Assembly: GCA_963920635.1 (NCBI GenBank)
Contig: OY987298.1
Location: 61,175,949 to 61,239,948 of the forward strand
Direction: 5' to 3'
Source of the DNA: Pseudeuparius sepicola
Lineage: Eukaryota > Arthropoda > Insecta > Coleoptera > Anthribidae
DNA length: 64,000 nt
Made by a program: the position numbers and the translations under genes. The notes beneath the pieces were generated by a model. The model saw only the letters and a program-made list of their open reading frames with translations, ran no database searches and was not told where the DNA came from. Below, piece by piece: positions 8,372 through 62,815 of the stretch (position 1 is its first letter; each line of letters opens with the position of its first letter).

Positions 8372-10645
8372 TAAAATTTTTATTTTCATCCGATATTAGC
8401 CGGTTTTTCTAACCATAGGTTACAAATAGCTGTTTTTTTTTATTTGGGTGCAAAATTTCAGGTCTTAATCTCAATTTTCAAAGTCTACTAGAATTTTTTT
8501 TTCTATAAAAAATTGACGAAAATCACTAATCAATATTTTTACCTCAAAACTAACTACGTCATTCCATTCGGGACCATCTGAAATGGGTTTGTTCCACGTA
8601 CCGTTAAAAAATAACAATTATTTAAATTACTGCCATATAATGAATACTGATTATTTATGAATCTGACTTCCCCTGTAAAAAGTTTATTTTTCGGAGGATT
8701 GCCACCAAACACAAAAACTATAGTTGCTATTCAAAACATTTCTACAGTCCAGAGTAAGTACTCCAAATTTAATGAGGGGGCCCATTTAAAATAATAGACC
8801 GAGAGATAGTGACAGATTTTTGGACGTGATTTAGCTCAGTATGCCATTTAAAGGGCATTATGTTACGTATATTCTCACAATAATAAGGTATGAATCAAAT
8901 AGTCATCCTGAGTTCTTCCTATGAAAAACTGAGTTTTCATTTATTCGAAAAGTATGGGTTATTATTGCCACGTGAACTTGTATTTTAAAAATAATAATTG
9001 TTCAGAAACGTTGAAAAATTAATTATTAATATTTCCACGTTTCTGAACAGGCTGCCAATGAGAAGTATATGCAAGTTCTTGATATGAAACTGCTGAAAAA
9101 AGGATGGCATACCGTTTGCGCATGTCCAAGTACAGTTTAAATCGAAAGTTATTTAATCATTTAAACGATTTATTCGATGTAAAATGTAGGTACCTACATG
9201 CGGAAATGGTATGCCATCTTTTCTTCAGCAGTTTTATGACAAGAACTTACATCCTACTTATCATTGACAGCCTGTTCAGAAACGTGAAATAGTATATTAT
9301 ACACTTAGGTTGAGAAGTGAGCCATTATATACCGAGGATATAATATGCGAGGTAAATAATGGATTTCTCAACCGAAGTGTATATAGAATTTGTTTTACTA
9401 CTAACATTGAAATATTGCCATATTTTAGTTTATTTTAGTCATTTCTCGCTTTTTCAAATACTTCGAAACATCAAGTAGCCTGGGAGTTCAGTTGTCAAGC
9501 TGATAAAATGACACTAATCTTTAAATGTCATATAGAAAATTTTTCATTATTTACCTAGGTATTTTCTTATTATTATTATTTACCTAGGGTGAGAAATATT
9601 ACTTCTCATTAGAGGAATGAGGTAAATAATGGTTGTTTCTCAGGTTAGTAGTAAAAAAAATATATTAAAATACAAGTTCACGTGACAATAATAGCCCTTT
9701 GGGCCCACGATAGCGGTATGCCGACAGCGTGATTAAAATCATATCAAAACGCATATTTTTCGAATAAATGAAAACTCAGTTTTCCATATGAGGAACCCAG
9801 GATGACTCTGATTTACACCTTATTATTGTGAGAATATACGCAACATAATGCCCTTTGAAAGGCATACTGAGTAAAATCACGTCCAAAAATCTGACACTAT
9901 CTCCCTGTCTATAAGTACAAGTTGTCCCATTTTCGGTACCTTCGCAGGTTATGTTTATATTTTGCAATTCTTATCTCCAAGAAAAAATCCGTGTACGCCA
10001 CTGAATTCTAGGTGAAAAATCTATAAAGGAAGATGGCAAATTTTAAAAATCACCTTGTATATCTCAAAAACTAAGGAGGTCATATTGTTTACGGGGTCTT
10101 TCTTTTATGAAAAAGTAGACCAGTGTCTTGAAAATTGCAACTCCATGTCTCTAAAAATAACCGAGATACCCTGAAAAGTAACGAAATTGGGACACCCTGT
10201 ACATACATGGAGCCACAGATTATACATTTAATTTTATTTGAAAACTTATTAAAAGTCGTGTTTGTCTGTCAAAATGTTTTGAATAACCACAGTTTTTGAG
10301 TTTAAACAGTAAAAATAAAAATTGGCAGAAATCTTACGAAAAATGAACTTTCTACAGGGAAACTCAGATTCATAAATTATCAATGCCTATACTCATTATA
10401 TCGCAGTATTTTTAATAATTGTTATTTCTTAAGGAAACTTTTTATACAAATCCATTTCCAGATGGTACCGAATCCAATAAAGTTGTCAGTTTTGAGGTAA
10501 AAAATCCCTAAATGATTTACGTTATTTTTTACTAAAAGAAATTCATAGTAGGCCTTCAAAATTGAGATTAAGATCCGGAAAATACCGTTTTTTGTGACCT
10601 CATCAAAAATCGGCTGAAATAAACTGAAAAATTAAAATTTTACTG
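8372..10645. mobile_element. 2.3-kb nested fold-back element
   Basis: The left side from about 8372 to 8960 is matched in inverse by the right side: outer arms about 8372-8770 against 10,200-10,645, inner arms about 8790-8960 against 9690-9905 (shared blocks include AAATGAAAACTCAG and GGCATAC/GTATGCC with ACCTTATTATTGTGAG). The right arm holds about 300 bp more than the left, which ends in GGGACACCCTGTACA, the signature of another element end, so an insertion has separated the arms. No open frame of note is present. Confidence 0.7.
9037..9290. repeat. Palindromic MITE nested in the fold-back element
   Basis: Arms at about 9037-9120 and 9198-9290 pair through CACGTTTCTGAACAGGCTG / CAGCCTGTTCAGAAACGTG and through GGATGGCATACC / GGTATGCCATC. 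It lies in the loop of the larger inverted repeat. Confidence 0.65.
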
Positions 10646-13445: not shown

Positions 13446-14371
13446 CCCTAAAATTACAGTTGAAACTCGAAATTTGCAAGATGAGATTTGGCCCAAGTTG
13501 TAATAATTATTTGTTATGTTCAATAGAACCACTTGCTTATTTTTGTTGTAACACAAAACTAAATGAAACGCGTTTTTTGAGATAAATGGGGTTACCTACT
13601 TGGAATAAGCTATCTGATTGCCAGATGCCTATGATTTTTACTGGGGTATACAGCGTGAGTCAGAATGTATAGTAAATATTTTAAAGGGGTGTTCGGCAGG
13701 TGGTTTTAGGGGGGTCTTTCATATAAAATTTTTCGATTTGGGCTTTGGGCTTTCCTTGCCAAGTTATTCGGGTCTACAGCATGACCCTAAAGTATATTTT
13801 TTTATTTATATCAATCTCAATGACGGCGCTACTTAAAAATTTGAAATTTGGTATGTGTTATCTACTTACTGGAAGACGCCTTAGGGTAGTTTATTCATTT
13901 ACACAGTGCCCTAAAATTACAGTTGAAACTCGAAATTTGCAAGATGAGATTTGGCCCAAGTTGTAATAATTATTTGTTATGTTCAATAGAACCACTTGCT
14001 TATTTTTGTTGTAACACAAAACTAAATGAAACGCGTTTTTTGAGATAAATGGGGTTACCTACTTGGAATAAGCTATCTGATTGCCAGATGCCTATGATTT
14101 TTACTGGGGTATACAGCGTGAGTCAGAATGTATAGTAAATATTTTAAAGGGGTGTTCGGCAGGTGGTTTTAGGGGGGTCTTTCATATAAAATTTTTCGAT
14201 TTGGGCTTTGGGCTTTCCTTGCCAAGTTATTCGGGTCTACAGCATGACCCTAAAGTATATTTTTTTATTTATATCAATCTCAATGACGGCGCTACTTAAA
14301 AATTTGAAATTTGGTATGTGTTATCTACTTACTGGAAGACGCCTTAGGGTAGTTTATTCATTTACACAGTG
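13446..14371 (+). repeat. Exact 463-bp tandem duplication
   Basis: Two units, 13,446-13,908 and 13,909-14,371, are identical as far as I could follow, beginning CCTAAAATTACAGTTGAAAC and ending CATTTACACAGTGC. The duplicated 72-residue frame within each is not recognisable as a protein. The lack of differences implies a very recent duplication or an assembly artefact. Confidence 0.85.
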
Positions 14372-14839
14372 CCCTAAAAAAGGGTAAAAACTAACAACCC
14401 CTATTAATTTTCTGCTCAAACTTTTTTGAGGTTATCTTTTTGGTCTTGCAGGTCCATCATCTCAGTGTAGGGGAAAGTTGCCGGAATTGGACCAGTTTAT
14501 GCTTCTTGCTAAATTTTAGCCAAATTTTATTCTTTTTTCTTCAAAAAACTAGAGGACTAGGTTTGTCCATGTTTGTTCAACGTATAAAACAAGTTATTTT
14601 GATAGGCGATTAAGTTTTAGGAGAATAAAACCAAAATAACTGAACCCATGCGAACGGTCCATTCGAGGAAACGTGTTGCTTTGATTGGACCAGTCGTTTC
14701 CTCAATTGGACCTATATACATTAGCATAAGAAAACAGCATAAATTTAGTAAAAATATGTATATTAAAAAAAGTACAAACTTCAAGGAAAAGTACAAAGGT
14801 TAATATACCTACTCATAGGTATTTAAATTTTAAAAATAT

Positions 14840-56966: not shown

Positions 56967-57249
56967 TATGACAAATATCGAAAATTGCCAAGAGAGCTAA
57001 ATTAAATGGTATGAAAAACAGTCAAAATATATCCAACAACGGTATTGGTGTGTGGATTTAAACGTGATAAGAATATGGTAGGATATATTTTGACTGTTTT
57101 TCATACCATTTAATTTAGCTCTCTTGGCAATTTTCGATATGATTAAAACAGTTTTAATCATCTCCTGATGATGCTAACTTAGTTAGCGAAACGCGCGTCG
57201 AGTGCAAAAACAACGGTATTGGTGTGTGGATTTAAACGTGATAAGAATA
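56967..57249 (+). mobile_element. Retrozyme-like element with hammerhead ribozyme
   Basis: Four blocks are visible. A 60-bp block A (56,975-57,034) is the exact inverse of A' (57,081-57,140). A 41-bp block D (57,035-57,075, starting AACAACGGTATTGGTGTG) is repeated directly and exactly at 57,209-57,249. Order: A, D, five bases, A', hammerhead, D. This is an inverted partial unit joined to slightly more than one direct unit of about 174 bp, as expected if a tandem RNA was reverse-transcribed with a 5' inversion. Short repeated units with a hammerhead are what has been described for animal retrozymes and for the terminal repeats of Penelope-like elements. No target duplication was found. Confidence 0.7.
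57151..57211 (+). ncRNA. Hammerhead ribozyme, type I
   Basis: The conserved core is complete: CTGATGA (57,165-57,171), helix II GCTAAC/GTTAGC with loop TTA (57,173-57,187), GAAA (57,188-57,191), a minimal helix III ACG/CGT with a two-base loop, and the cleavage triplet GTC (57,197-57,199). Helix I pairs CTC (57,162-57,164) with GAG (57,200-57,202) and, past an internal loop, GTTTT with AAAAC. Predicted cleavage is after C57,199. A single T between the CTGATGA box and helix II is an addition to the minimal consensus and is also present in the other two candidates. The tiny helix III is typical of hammerheads in Penelope-like elements and retrozymes, which often act best as dimers. Confidence 0.85.
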
Positions 57250-57867: not shown

Positions 57868-58050
57868 TGTTGTGTTAGGTTTAGGGAAATTGTAAACCCG
57901 GTAGCGTCACGAGAGGTGACAGAAAAGTCAGTCGGCTGAGAAGCTCGTGGCGGGTCGGTGCTCGATGTTATAGTACCTAAATAAAGTTAGTTTCTCGCTA
58001 TATTCTAGTGTCTAAATCAAACTCCCGTACGCCTACACCGCAACAGAACA
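57868..58050 (+). repeat. 5' LTR
   Basis: Begins TG and ends CA as LTRs do; contains CTAAATAAAG, a likely polyadenylation signal, about 65 bp before its end. Confidence 0.95.
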
Positions 58051-59475: not shown

Positions 59476-60838
59476 GGCGTTCAGCCTTATGTCCAATCTA
59501 CACCTAGGGTAGTCCCGATCCCGTTATTGAAACCTCTCAAGGAAGAGTTAGATAGGCTAACAAAGTTGAAGATTATAGAACCCGTAGGCTATCATACCCT
59601 ATGGGTAAGTCCTATCGTGGTCGTACAAAAAAATTCAAAAATTCGGTTGTGTGTAGATTATACTCATTTAAATAAGGCGGTTCTACGTACCTATTTTCCC
59701 ATCGGAAAAGTAGAAACCCTTTTAGCAAAAATACAAGGATCGAAGATTTTTAGTAAGCTAGATACTACATCTGGATTTTATCAAATACGCCTAAAAAAAG
59801 AGTCTCAACATCTTACAACTTTTATAACGCCTTATGGTCGATTTTTATTTAAACGGGTACCATTCGGTATTACCTGTGCTCCTGAATATTTTTCTATCTT
59901 ACTCCATAAAATTCTTCAAGGAATAGAAGGAGTAATTAGTCATATCGATGACATTCTCGTATACATGCCCCAACGGTAGAGGAACATGATAAAATATTGA
60001 ATGAAGTTTTAAGAAGGATAGATGCCGAAGGAATAACTTTGAATAAGGATAAATGTTTGTTTCGGACTCAAAATTTAACCTTTTTGGGTCATAACATTTC
60101 ACCTGAAGGTGTATCGGTCGATCCTGATCGGGTTAAGGTCATAGTCGAGTTCCCCGCACCGGCCAATAAAAAAGAATTGCTACAATTTCTGGGAATGGTC
60201 AACTTCTGTAATAGATTTCTGCCAGAGCGTTCACAATTGCTCGAACCTTTAACGTCTTTATTAAAGAAAAATGTCGGCTTCGTTTGGGATAGTTCTCAAA
60301 ATGACGCGTTTTCAAAAATTAAATGGTTACTACAAAAGAGTCCTTGCTTAGCACATTATATGATCCTACGAAAACTATTTCTATTTCTGCGGATGCGTCA
60401 TCTTTTGGGTTGGGTGCTTGTCTCCTACAGAGTAAAGGCAACCAAAAAGAAGTTGTTTGCTATTCCTCACGCTTACTTTGTACAACAGAGAAGCGATATG
60501 CCCAAATCGAACGCGAAGCTTTAGCAATTACTTGGGCTTGTGACAAATTCAAGGAATATATAACAGGTATTCCCATTTTAATTGAAACTGACCAAAAGCC
60601 TTTGGTTCAAGTGTTACAGTCAAAACCTATAGATGAATTAACTCCAAGGTTTCAACGTTTTAGAATAAGGCTAATACGCTACGATTATCAAATTTATTAT
60701 ACGCCCGGGAAAGACCTTGTAGTAGCTGACGCGTTGTCGCGGAATTTTTCTAATCTGTCAGATTCCTTCGAACAAGAAGAATTGGCTCAGGAAGTTGAAG
60801 CACATGTTAAAATGGTTGTTAAGTTCAGTGCAAGTTAA
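59476..60838 (+). pseudogene. pol: reverse transcriptase and RNase H, frameshifted
   Basis: RT motifs in order: the fingers motif IRLCVDYTHLNKAV, motif A FSKLDTTSGFYQI, motif B FLFKRVPFGI, and the catalytic ISHIDDILVYM, where His takes the usual Tyr/Phe place before x-DD. A frameshift near 59,972 precedes the thumb (LNKDKCLFRTQNLTFLGHNI), and another near 60,358 precedes RNase H, whose acidic residues are in ISADASSFGLGACL, IEREALAI and ETDQKPLV, ending with PGKDLVVADALSR. The layout is that of Ty3/gypsy. Confidence 0.9.
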
Positions 60839-61486
60839 ACCATATTTTATTGAAAAAAATAAGGGAGGAACAGGGTAAGGATTTGATTTGTAACAAACTT
60901 AAAGATACTATTTTATCTGGATGGCCAAGTAGACCTAAAGTTCATGCTAGCTTACTTCCTTACTATTACCAGTACCGGTTTGAATTTTCTGTAGTTGAGG
61001 GATTGGTTTTGAGAAATTCAAGAATCCTAATTCCTCAATCGCTGCAGCTACATTACTTAGATTTATTACACCAGGGCCATCAGGGAATAGTGAAATGTCG
61101 AGCTCGTGCAAAATGCTCAGTATGGTGGCTGGGGTTATCTAGTCAAATAGAAAATTTGGTTAGGAATTGTCCGCAGTGTGTAGAGAACAGAACCAATCCT
61201 GTAGAGACTTTTATTAAAGAAACTTTCCCTGATAGGCCGTGGCAAAAATTAGCGTTAGATTTGTTTAAGACGGACTGTTGGTACCTGATAGTCATGGATT
61301 ATTATTCGAGATTTTTCGAAATATTTAAGCTCAGAACAATGACTGAAGCGGTAGTTATCTCTAAAATGAAGGAATTATTTTGTAGATATGGGATTCCGGA
61401 AATAGTTAGATCCGACAACGGTCCTCAATTTCAGTCAGAATTTAAACAGTTCTCGGTAGAATATGATTTTAGACACATCACAAGTA

Positions 61487-61873
61487 TTGCATAGATCAAA
61501 GTTTTCTCCTTTACCAACGTAACGTCAAAGATACTGCTATCTTTGTTGGGACATGTCCTGACATGCTGCAGGCACAATGATCCCAGCCAGCCCATTACCG
61601 GTTTCATCCTCTTTGGGAATCATCAGATGGACGTAGGCAAAATCCGGAGTGCAGATGGATTCAAAAGATAGAACCAACAGAAACAACTACTCCGAGGGCT
61701 AATACCCCTACCGGCATTGAACTTTGAACATTGACGTTACGTTGGTAAAGGAGAAAACTTTGATCTATGCAATGTTTATTCCCAACGAAAATCGAGAATC
61801 AATGGTGTAGTTCAATGCCGGTAGGGGTATTAGCCCTCGGAGTAGTTGTTTCTGTTGGTTCTATCTTTTGAAT
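61487..61873 (-). mobile_element. Retrozyme-like insertion with 12-bp duplication and interleaved inverted repeats
   Basis: The 12-mer ACATCACAAGTA flanks the insert on both sides (61,475-61,486; 61,874-61,885). In plus order the insert reads A (to 61,528), 130 bp, B (61,659-61,722), 8 bp, A' (61,731-61,773), 36 bp, B' (61,810-61,873), where A' and B' are exact inverses of A (43 bp) and B (64 bp). The left part read on the minus strand is a unit; the right part is an inverted junction of the same circular unit, whose implied length is about 273 bp. A hammerhead core lies in the 130-bp segment. This fits a tandem circular RNA copied with a 5' inversion, as in the insertion at 57 kb. Confidence 0.78.
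61590..61632 (-). ncRNA. Hammerhead ribozyme, type I, second family
   Basis: On the minus strand: CTGATGA (61,626-61,620), a short helix II TCC/GGA with loop CAAAGA, GAAA (61,605-61,602), helix III ACC/GGT without a loop, and triplet GTA with cleavage expected after A61,596. Helix I has six pairs, GTCCAT with ATGGGC, including one G-U. The weak point is helix II: three base pairs bounded by a T-T mismatch where a G-C is usual. The self-complementary helix III suggests that dimers would be the active form. Confidence 0.72.
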
Positions 61874-62237
61874 ACATCACAAGTACTCCATATTTTCCAC
61901 AATCTAACGGGTGTGTAGAAGCAGCCGTTAAAGTGGCAAAAAAATTAAGAAGAATGATGACATTTATTTAGCCTTGTTGTCCTACCGGTCAACTCCCTTA
62001 GCTTGTGGTTACAGTCCCGCAGAACTTCTAATGAATCGAAAATTGCGAAATCCTCTGCCTATAGTCTCTCACGAACTAAATAAATCATTAGACACTCAAG
62101 GGATCTTTAGAAGAGAAGAGATAAATATCTAAGATAATAATCTGCCAAGCATTTCAATACCCGACACAGGGCCAGACAATTGTCTGATTTGTCTATCGGT
62201 GAAAGTGTTTGGATAACAGATTTACGAGCATACAGTA

Positions 62238-62632: not shown

Positions 62633-62815
62633 TGTTGTGTTAGGTTTAGGAAAATTGTAAACCCGGTAGCGTCGCGATAGGTGACAGAAAAGTCAGTCGG
62701 CTGAGAGGCTCGTGGCGGGTCGGTGCTCGATGTTATGGTACCTAAATAAAGTTAATTTCTGGCTATATTCTAGTGTCTAAATCAAACTCCCGTACGCCTA
62801 CACCGCAACAGAACA
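62633..62815 (+). repeat. 3' LTR
   Basis: Same length as the 5' LTR with seven substitutions and no indels (96% identity). Confidence 0.95.

Follow-up and report, generated by a model that had tools for sequence, protein, structure and literature searches.

What kind of element inserted 387 bp into the integrase of a gypsy retrotransposon, and which machinery put it there? The question arises from the stretch of DNA analyzed here (64,000 bp of Pseudeuparius sepicola, referred to as the window), in which an earlier reading of the sequence, the original prediction, had recognized a retrozyme-like insertion with a 12-bp target duplication, no terminal inverted repeat of its own, two inverted repeats in the interleaved order A B A' B' and a hammerhead on the minus strand, and had related it to a circular or tandem RNA of 273 nt joined to itself at an inverted junction. 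This anatomy was confirmed (Table 1): ACATCACAAGTA was found at both flanks, A and A' were exact over 43 nt, B and B' were exact over 65 nt (61659-61723 and 61809-61873), and the outer ends were two different sequences. The target site duplication of the window copy is supported by its own sequence together with the other copies of the element. When the RNA was numbered from the ribozyme cut, the 3' end of the RNA corresponded to unit position ~109/110 in the first segment (at window position 61487), in which the ribozyme cut site was read through, and to ~209/210 in the second (at 61873). Among the best named matches of the gypsy integrase were sequences from ants, beetles and a wasp, with fish, spider and coral ranking lower. 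Both the retrozyme-like nature of the insertion in the gypsy integrase and the 273-nt circular or tandem template with its inverted junction were supported by 67 further distinct copies, described below.

Table 1. Position of the retrozyme insertion, its parts and its gypsy host in the window
Feature	Position	Strand	Basis or remark
Whole retrozyme insertion, 387 bp	61487..61873	-	Repeats, duplication, genome copies
Target site duplication copy 1, 12 bp, ACATCACAAGTA	61475..61486		Sequence
Target site duplication copy 2, 12 bp, ACATCACAAGTA	61874..61885		Sequence
Segment 1, sense RNA on minus strand, 0.87 unit	61487..61723	-	Mapped on unit
Filler of 7 nt at the inversion junction	61724..61730		Sequence
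Segment 2, inverted, sense RNA on plus strand, about half a unit	61731..61873	+	Mapped on unit
Type I hammerhead ribozyme motif	61590..61632	-	Sequence pattern; Rfam HH9 below gathering score
Inverted repeat A, partner A'	61486..61528	+	43 nt, 100%
Inverted repeat A', partner A	61731..61773	-	43 nt, 100%
Inverted repeat B, partner B'	61654..61723	+	70 nt, 99%
Inverted repeat B', partner B	61809..61878	-	70 nt, 99%; final 5 nt belong to the target duplication
Open frame of the gypsy host with the integrase zinc-binding domain and a partial rve core	60823..61494	+	Split by the retrozyme insertion
Left repeat, 183 bp, probable left LTR (or part) of the host gypsy	57868..58050	+	96% identity to 62633-62815
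Right repeat, probable right LTR (or part) of the host gypsy	62633..62815	+	96% identity to 57868-58050

On the minus strand, with the parts numbered as is customary for hammerheads, the motif comprises CUGAUGA (61620-61626), GAAA...GGUA (61596-61605) and a helix I formed by GUCCAU and AUGGGC (61627-61632 and 61590-61595), with a U.U at the base of stem II and a loopless palindrome, ACCGGU, as helix III. Cleavage is predicted from the motif between 61596 and 61595, the same site that had been proposed originally. The claim of a complete hammerhead core held insofar as the motif is present, but with a palindromic helix III that lacks a loop, the core can be called complete in a minimal, probably dimer-forming sense only. 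In the proposed Rfam check, nothing reached the gathering thresholds in the whole window, and Hammerhead_HH9 matched with 27.1 bits (E = 1.9e-4 in a search of 801 bases), under its gathering score of 52. The core pattern CTGANGA-N4-30-GAAAC is weak evidence when taken alone, since it had two matches in the window against 0.54 expected. In an array of ~8 units (L048), HH9 matches recurred eight times, at 27.1 or 25.1 bits. A search of the own genome with HH9 gave no match and was uninformative, because the controls gave none either, though the window copy does match HH9. The motif was complete by eye in the unit and broken in some copies. No sign of selection on the ribozyme was detected when variation was compared across copies (0.028 variants per covered position and locus in the core vs. 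0.030 in the rest of the unit); drift of the core in other copies, named beforehand as an observation that might refute the prediction, was therefore neutral, as insertions are expected to decay after landing. The predicted fold of the unit was no more stable than that of shuffled sequence (z = -0.34).

In order to find further copies, the own genome (769 Mb in 16 contigs) was searched with the window copy, resulting in 311 matches from 40 scored of 795 candidates, and with an exact 32-base pattern across the predicted junction, which had 281 matches, while its backward control had none. The loci taken were 39 from the similarity search, 30 from 100 listed junction-pattern places, and the window copy itself. 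Mapping onto one real unit from L048 yielded 71 insertions, 68 of them distinct after dropping duplicates (L040, L066.0 and L088), and the flanks of 25 one-orientation and 10 incomplete inverted insertions were examined for inverted parts, of which one clear case was recognized, in L037. Two retrozyme insertions had been duplicated later along with their flanks, one at a distance of 610 bp (L066) and the other ~55 kb apart on contig C2 (L087/L088).

Tandem arrays of the predicted 273-bp period were found elsewhere in the genome, some of them with steps of 270-271 bp, and the size of the copies ranged from less than one unit to ~15 units. The unit is non-coding, with a longest stop-free run of 58 codons and a GC content of 0.443. 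Of the 68 insertions, 44 were inverted head to head and 24 had a single orientation. The query of the similarity search itself holds an inverted junction; in the sample obtained by junction pattern only (n = 41, from contig C1 and part of C2, counting L087 and its duplicate L088 both, and favouring copies that span the 109 site), 27 of 41 were inverted. The inverted junction, originally described as rarely documented together with a clean duplication, is a common form in this element and not a rare one. Pattern scans of viral_contigs (for the hammerhead and for the A and B pieces) and of genome_contigs (for the hammerhead) revealed no relative of the element, the eight hammerhead matches in the former and the single one in the latter having only the short pattern in common with it; Rfam returned nothing at E up to 0.05 for six of these nine loci (L001-L006). 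One of the matches in a viral contig (L007, ~9868-9930) reads CTGATGA...GAAACCGGT, with a long helix III behind it and a helix I that matches, and by eye looks like an ordinary type I hammerhead.

The ends of the insertions were strongly clustered. Among 112 outer RNA 3' ends read in the 68 insertions, 97 were placed at ~109 (51 ends) or ~209 (46 ends) and 15 elsewhere, using site windows of 99-119 and 196-231 that were chosen after the data had been seen; the commonest exact ends were 109 and 110 for the first site and 209 for the second. The ribozyme cut was not an end, because 76 of the 97 segments crossed the ribozyme junction and only six had their 5' end within the first 10 nt past the cut; 56 of the 97 exceeded one unit. 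The two sites were, moreover, almost always combined. Both ends could be assigned to one of the sites in 34 inverted insertions, and 33 of these paired 109 with 209 (18 and 15 per direction), the exception being one 109/109 pair, with no 209/209 pair detected; a further ten inverted insertions had at least one end outside both sites. With independent choice of sites about half of the pairs would be expected to be mixed, and finding at most one same-site pair in 34 has P = 1.9e-9. Perfect palindromes that were lost or misassembled could account for part of the missing same-site pairs. In the 109/109 insertion (L047, C6:35980000-35982300) the flanking DNA is itself inverted, forming a large palindrome. 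In another locus (L075), a 12-nt match may place an end at ~211; it was left out of the counts.

Duplications of 9-15 bp flanked 44 of the 68 insertions and measured 12 or 13 bp in 35 of these 44, while a duplication of at least 11 bp was present in 31 of the 33 complete 109/209 insertions. A total of 42 distinct targets with duplications of 11-14 bp were turned so that each duplication began on the side of the 109 end. GTT started exactly where the duplication ended in 20 of the 42, against a background frequency of 0.0199, and in 20 targets AAC marked the start of the duplication, at offset 0 or 1, the other offsets of AAC or GTT accounting for 0-3 targets each; when both triplets lay near the edges, the commonest spacing was 12 (8 of 13). 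The target preference is thus a palindromic one, AAC-N12-GTT. Judging from the position of the insertion ends, we infer that nicking of each strand would take place 5' of GTT and produce 3' overhangs of 12 nt, and that the ends of both overhangs could prime.

Evidence on the template was obtained by comparing the halves of 37 two-segment events at 51 polymorphic variants, each present in at least three loci. Halves of the same event agreed 1277 times and disagreed 41 times, compared with a mean of 117 and a minimum of 86 disagreements among shuffled partners in 300 trials, indicating that one RNA type is used per insertion event. At the inversion junction of 38 two-segment insertions (L037 not among them), the segments overlapped in 22, were joined bluntly in 3 and were separated by filler in 13. 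The long arrays ended at the same fixed 3' sites as the short copies. They included L037 (14.65 units in one direction plus 72 nt inverted, 13-bp duplication), L025 (~13 units, 12-bp duplication), L026 (10.8 units, 11-bp duplication), L048 (~8 units, 13-bp duplication) and L063 (5.6 units, 13-bp duplication); in L022 (8.1 units) a duplication was looked for at the flanks and none was found. A private variant present in 11 of 11 units of L026, and 13 variants common to all units of L060, fit copying from one template. In L022, L025 and L037 the units are mosaics of family polymorphisms, which argues against copying of a single circle, and rolling reverse transcription of one circle was accordingly rejected as the explanation for all arrays. 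Template switching, multimeric templates and later conversion are candidates for the origin of the mosaics. In L063, the 109 nt beside the priming site lack two scorable variants (unit positions 25 and 67) that are present in the five other units covering these positions, as if the cDNA had changed template early.

At least 132 GIY-YIG matches were found in the same genome (150 scored of 1364 candidates), not all of which need be Penelope elements. One Penelope-like family, PLE-1 (L089), has a 3136-bp period and an 819-aa frame with RVT_1 and GIY-YIG domains, its named relatives in the match list being from insects, and carries a minimal hammerhead-like motif, recognized by pattern only. Of 52 matches to its junction region, 40 ended at one of two sites, 66 and 98 nt past the cut predicted for its ribozyme (outer site, 21; inner site, 19), 11 reached the end of the query or nearly so, and one ended elsewhere. 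When matches were paired by proximity and both ends read, 15 of 16 insertions joined one end of each kind and carried a duplication (12 bp in eight, 13 bp in three, 14 bp in two, 16 bp with one mismatch in one, and 17 bp in one); in the sixteenth the right end lay elsewhere and there was no duplication. Nine other single ends stayed outside this pairing. The preference for GTT was weaker in PLE-1 targets than in those of the retrozyme (4 of 30 sides). A second family, PLE-2, was read in one copy, with ends 66 and 97 nt after a hammerhead-like motif (again by pattern only), an inverted structure and a 13-bp duplication, and 38 of its 40 other matches ended at or near the second site (these being the best 40 of 1011, with long matches favoured). 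For these two families, Rfam searches of L089 and L123 at E up to 1 listed no hammerhead.

The retrozyme is not itself a Penelope-like element, as its unit is non-coding, nor does it share the sequence expected of a deletion derivative of PLE-1 or PLE-2: comparison of the unit with both families gave no similarity beyond chance matches of 9-13 bases, and homology with the Penelope start regions was not seen. It does have the Penelope-type anatomy, namely two fixed cDNA starts 3' of the hammerhead and inverted halves, with a different spacing of the starts (109/209 vs. 66/97-98). The link between the two is one of anatomy, not of sequence. Elsewhere in the window, a second, Penelope-style minimal hammerhead motif was observed on the plus strand (57159-57205), with the palindrome ACGCGCGT as helix III; it adjoins an inverted repeat (56975-57140), is not similar to PLE-1 or PLE-2, and reached 20.6 bits with RF00163 (E = 0.023 over 501 bases), short of the gathering score, which is 34. 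Among the 22 tandem repeats listed for the window, the longest consists of two copies of a 463-bp unit with 100% identity (13446-14379).

Since the retrozyme insertions match the anatomy of PLE-1 (15 insertions) and PLE-2 (one copy), they follow a Penelope-style plan, and we consider it likely that the element is a non-LTR retrozyme of the animal type, non-autonomous and mobilized by Penelope machinery, which would prime cDNA on both cut target strands from a circular or multimeric RNA. Array transcripts would be cut by the hammerhead, of a minimal type I and probably acting as a dimer, and then closed into circles or left multimeric. The ends and the target suggest that a Penelope-like reverse transcriptase with a GIY-YIG endonuclease, as a dimer, would nick both strands, preferably 5' of GTT and 12 bp apart. 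The 3' end of each nicked strand would then prime at a fixed RNA site of its own, so that the cDNA of one strand starts at ~109 and that of its partner at ~209, with no strand tied to a given site; this step is seen as anatomy in the paired ends, from which we infer its mechanism. As the anatomy of the copies illustrates, the cDNAs would pass the ribozyme junction, often growing longer than one unit, and their free ends would be joined by microhomology or a short filler to give a head-to-head inverted insertion between duplications of 12-13 bp. Extension of one strand only would produce a one-orientation insertion or a tandem array, and the window copy would represent one such event inside the gypsy integrase. 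A more specific proposal, in which the retrozyme circle offers two separate entry sites to the Penelope dimer, one circle feeds both cut strands at once, and a single insertion creates satellite-like arrays of at least ten units, appears to us evenly balanced between true and false.

Several other mechanisms could generate parts of this anatomy. An ordinary LINE, with an APE- or RLE-type endonuclease, might copy a multimeric transcript by twin priming of the classical kind, with chance internal priming as the source of the second start. Twin priming is a term used for LINEs, in which inverted 5' parts between duplications, like those of the retrozyme, and variable 5' ends are known and the second priming point is not known to be at a fixed site; microhomology at the priming end, with CAA at the 109 end in many targets, would also agree with such a helper. 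In the retrozyme, however, the start at ~209 is no less fixed than that at ~109, all but one of the 34 pairs are mixed, the stagger is nearly constant at 12-13 bp, the target preference is palindromic, and the PLE-1 copies of the same genome have this anatomy, all of which makes a LINE an improbable mover. Nor is it likely that the inversions arose through self-priming of the antisense template or of the cDNA in place of priming on both target strands. This process was proposed for head-to-head Penelope structures with junction palindromes in Adineta (in the available text of PMC3846280), and a palindrome near unit positions 31-50 does lie at the junction of some retrozyme copies, e.g. L027 and L037; yet one fixed self-priming point would give the reverse of the pattern observed, in which the outer ends lie at fixed RNA positions beside the duplications and the inner junctions vary, and we regard this explanation as very improbable.

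The form of the template can also be read differently, in a way compatible with a Penelope helper: linear monomers cut by the ribozyme could be copied end to end by template jumping, without any circle. Shifts of haplotype between successive units of several arrays (L022, L037) would be accounted for, as would the early absence of variants in L063, but the ribozyme cut shows no accumulation of 5' ends, haplotypes switch inside units as well (L025), and the private variant of L026 runs through the whole array, so that we judge this reading rather unlikely. It is barely credible that DNA transposition has spread a satellite or foldback DNA whose hammerhead is a chance match; tandem arrays, inverted repeats and near-constant duplications are what this would produce, whereas the outer ends are not terminal inverted repeats, the recurrence of HH9 along L048 speaks against chance, and fixed 3' ends, variable 5' ends and variants common to both halves point to copying from RNA.

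The preferred reading, movement by Penelope machinery, bears on the mover of animal retrozymes, which is presented as an open question in the available text of a 2020 review (PMC7761336) and of the discovery paper (PMC7229834). The former states that retrozyme repeats show no motif from which a helper could be deduced, the discussion of the latter considers Penelope a strong but unproven candidate, and reviews, as far as their available text goes, either do not commit themselves to a helper or point to LINEs or Penelope elements (PMC7761336, PMC11722881). The insertions described here carry a signature, made of two RNA start sites, a 12-bp stagger and a palindromic target preference, and a single purified protein together with a single 273-nt RNA would therefore suffice to test the helper question. 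The arrays of ~8 to 15 units between duplications of 11-13 bp (L025, L026, L037, L048) bear in turn on the origin of hammerhead satellites, although later expansion may have taken place inside them.

Compared with known systems, the element differs from the plant LTR retrozymes, which have a type III hammerhead in their LTRs and a 4-bp duplication, in its type I motif and its mostly 12-13 bp duplications. It resembles the metazoan non-LTR retrozymes, as described in the available text of Cervera and de la Pena 2020 (PMC7229834), in its tandem unit (273 bp, within 170-400 bp), its type I hammerhead (here by motif and a sub-threshold HH9 match), its non-coding nature and low GC content (0.443, below 45-50%), target duplications of more than 4 bp (mostly 12-13 bp here) and the presence of Penelope elements in the same genome; the two axolotl motifs reported there are comparable, in that their helix III is weak and bears a palindromic loop and a U.U is found at helix II. 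For the Penelope protein of Poseidon from Anolis, cutting and extension of both strands were shown in vitro, with cDNA synthesis beginning internally at two neighbouring sites in agreement with the genomic tail; the protein is a predicted dimer, its start site is the same for both strands, it prefers ATT, and the ribozyme is not needed in vitro (PMC11167929). The retrozyme is similar to these elements in having a hammerhead motif followed by two internal cDNA starts, used on both strands, and to the Penelope-like families of its own genome in its head-to-head inverted halves and in duplication length (mostly 12-14 bp in PLE-1). Unlike Penelope elements, it encodes no protein, has a unit of only 273 nt, starts 100 nt apart instead of 31-32, and shares no detectable sequence with PLE-1 or PLE-2. 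Adineta Penelope copies with inverted pLTRs, according to the available text of PMC3846280, likewise show inverted halves, short duplications and movement of foreign sequence in trans, but have no ribozyme circle, their inversions being ascribed to self-priming on antisense RNA. In the open-licence literature, surveyed by title and abstract opening and with most subscription papers outside this scope, no two fixed start sites and no target of the AAC-N12-GTT type were found for a retrozyme. Relative to the retrozymes in the available text of PMC7229834, the present copies go further in that single insertions are resolved, with two fixed cDNA starts, mixed 109/209 pairing, a palindromic target and inverted halves. 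Animal retrozymes as such are already known (PMC7229834).
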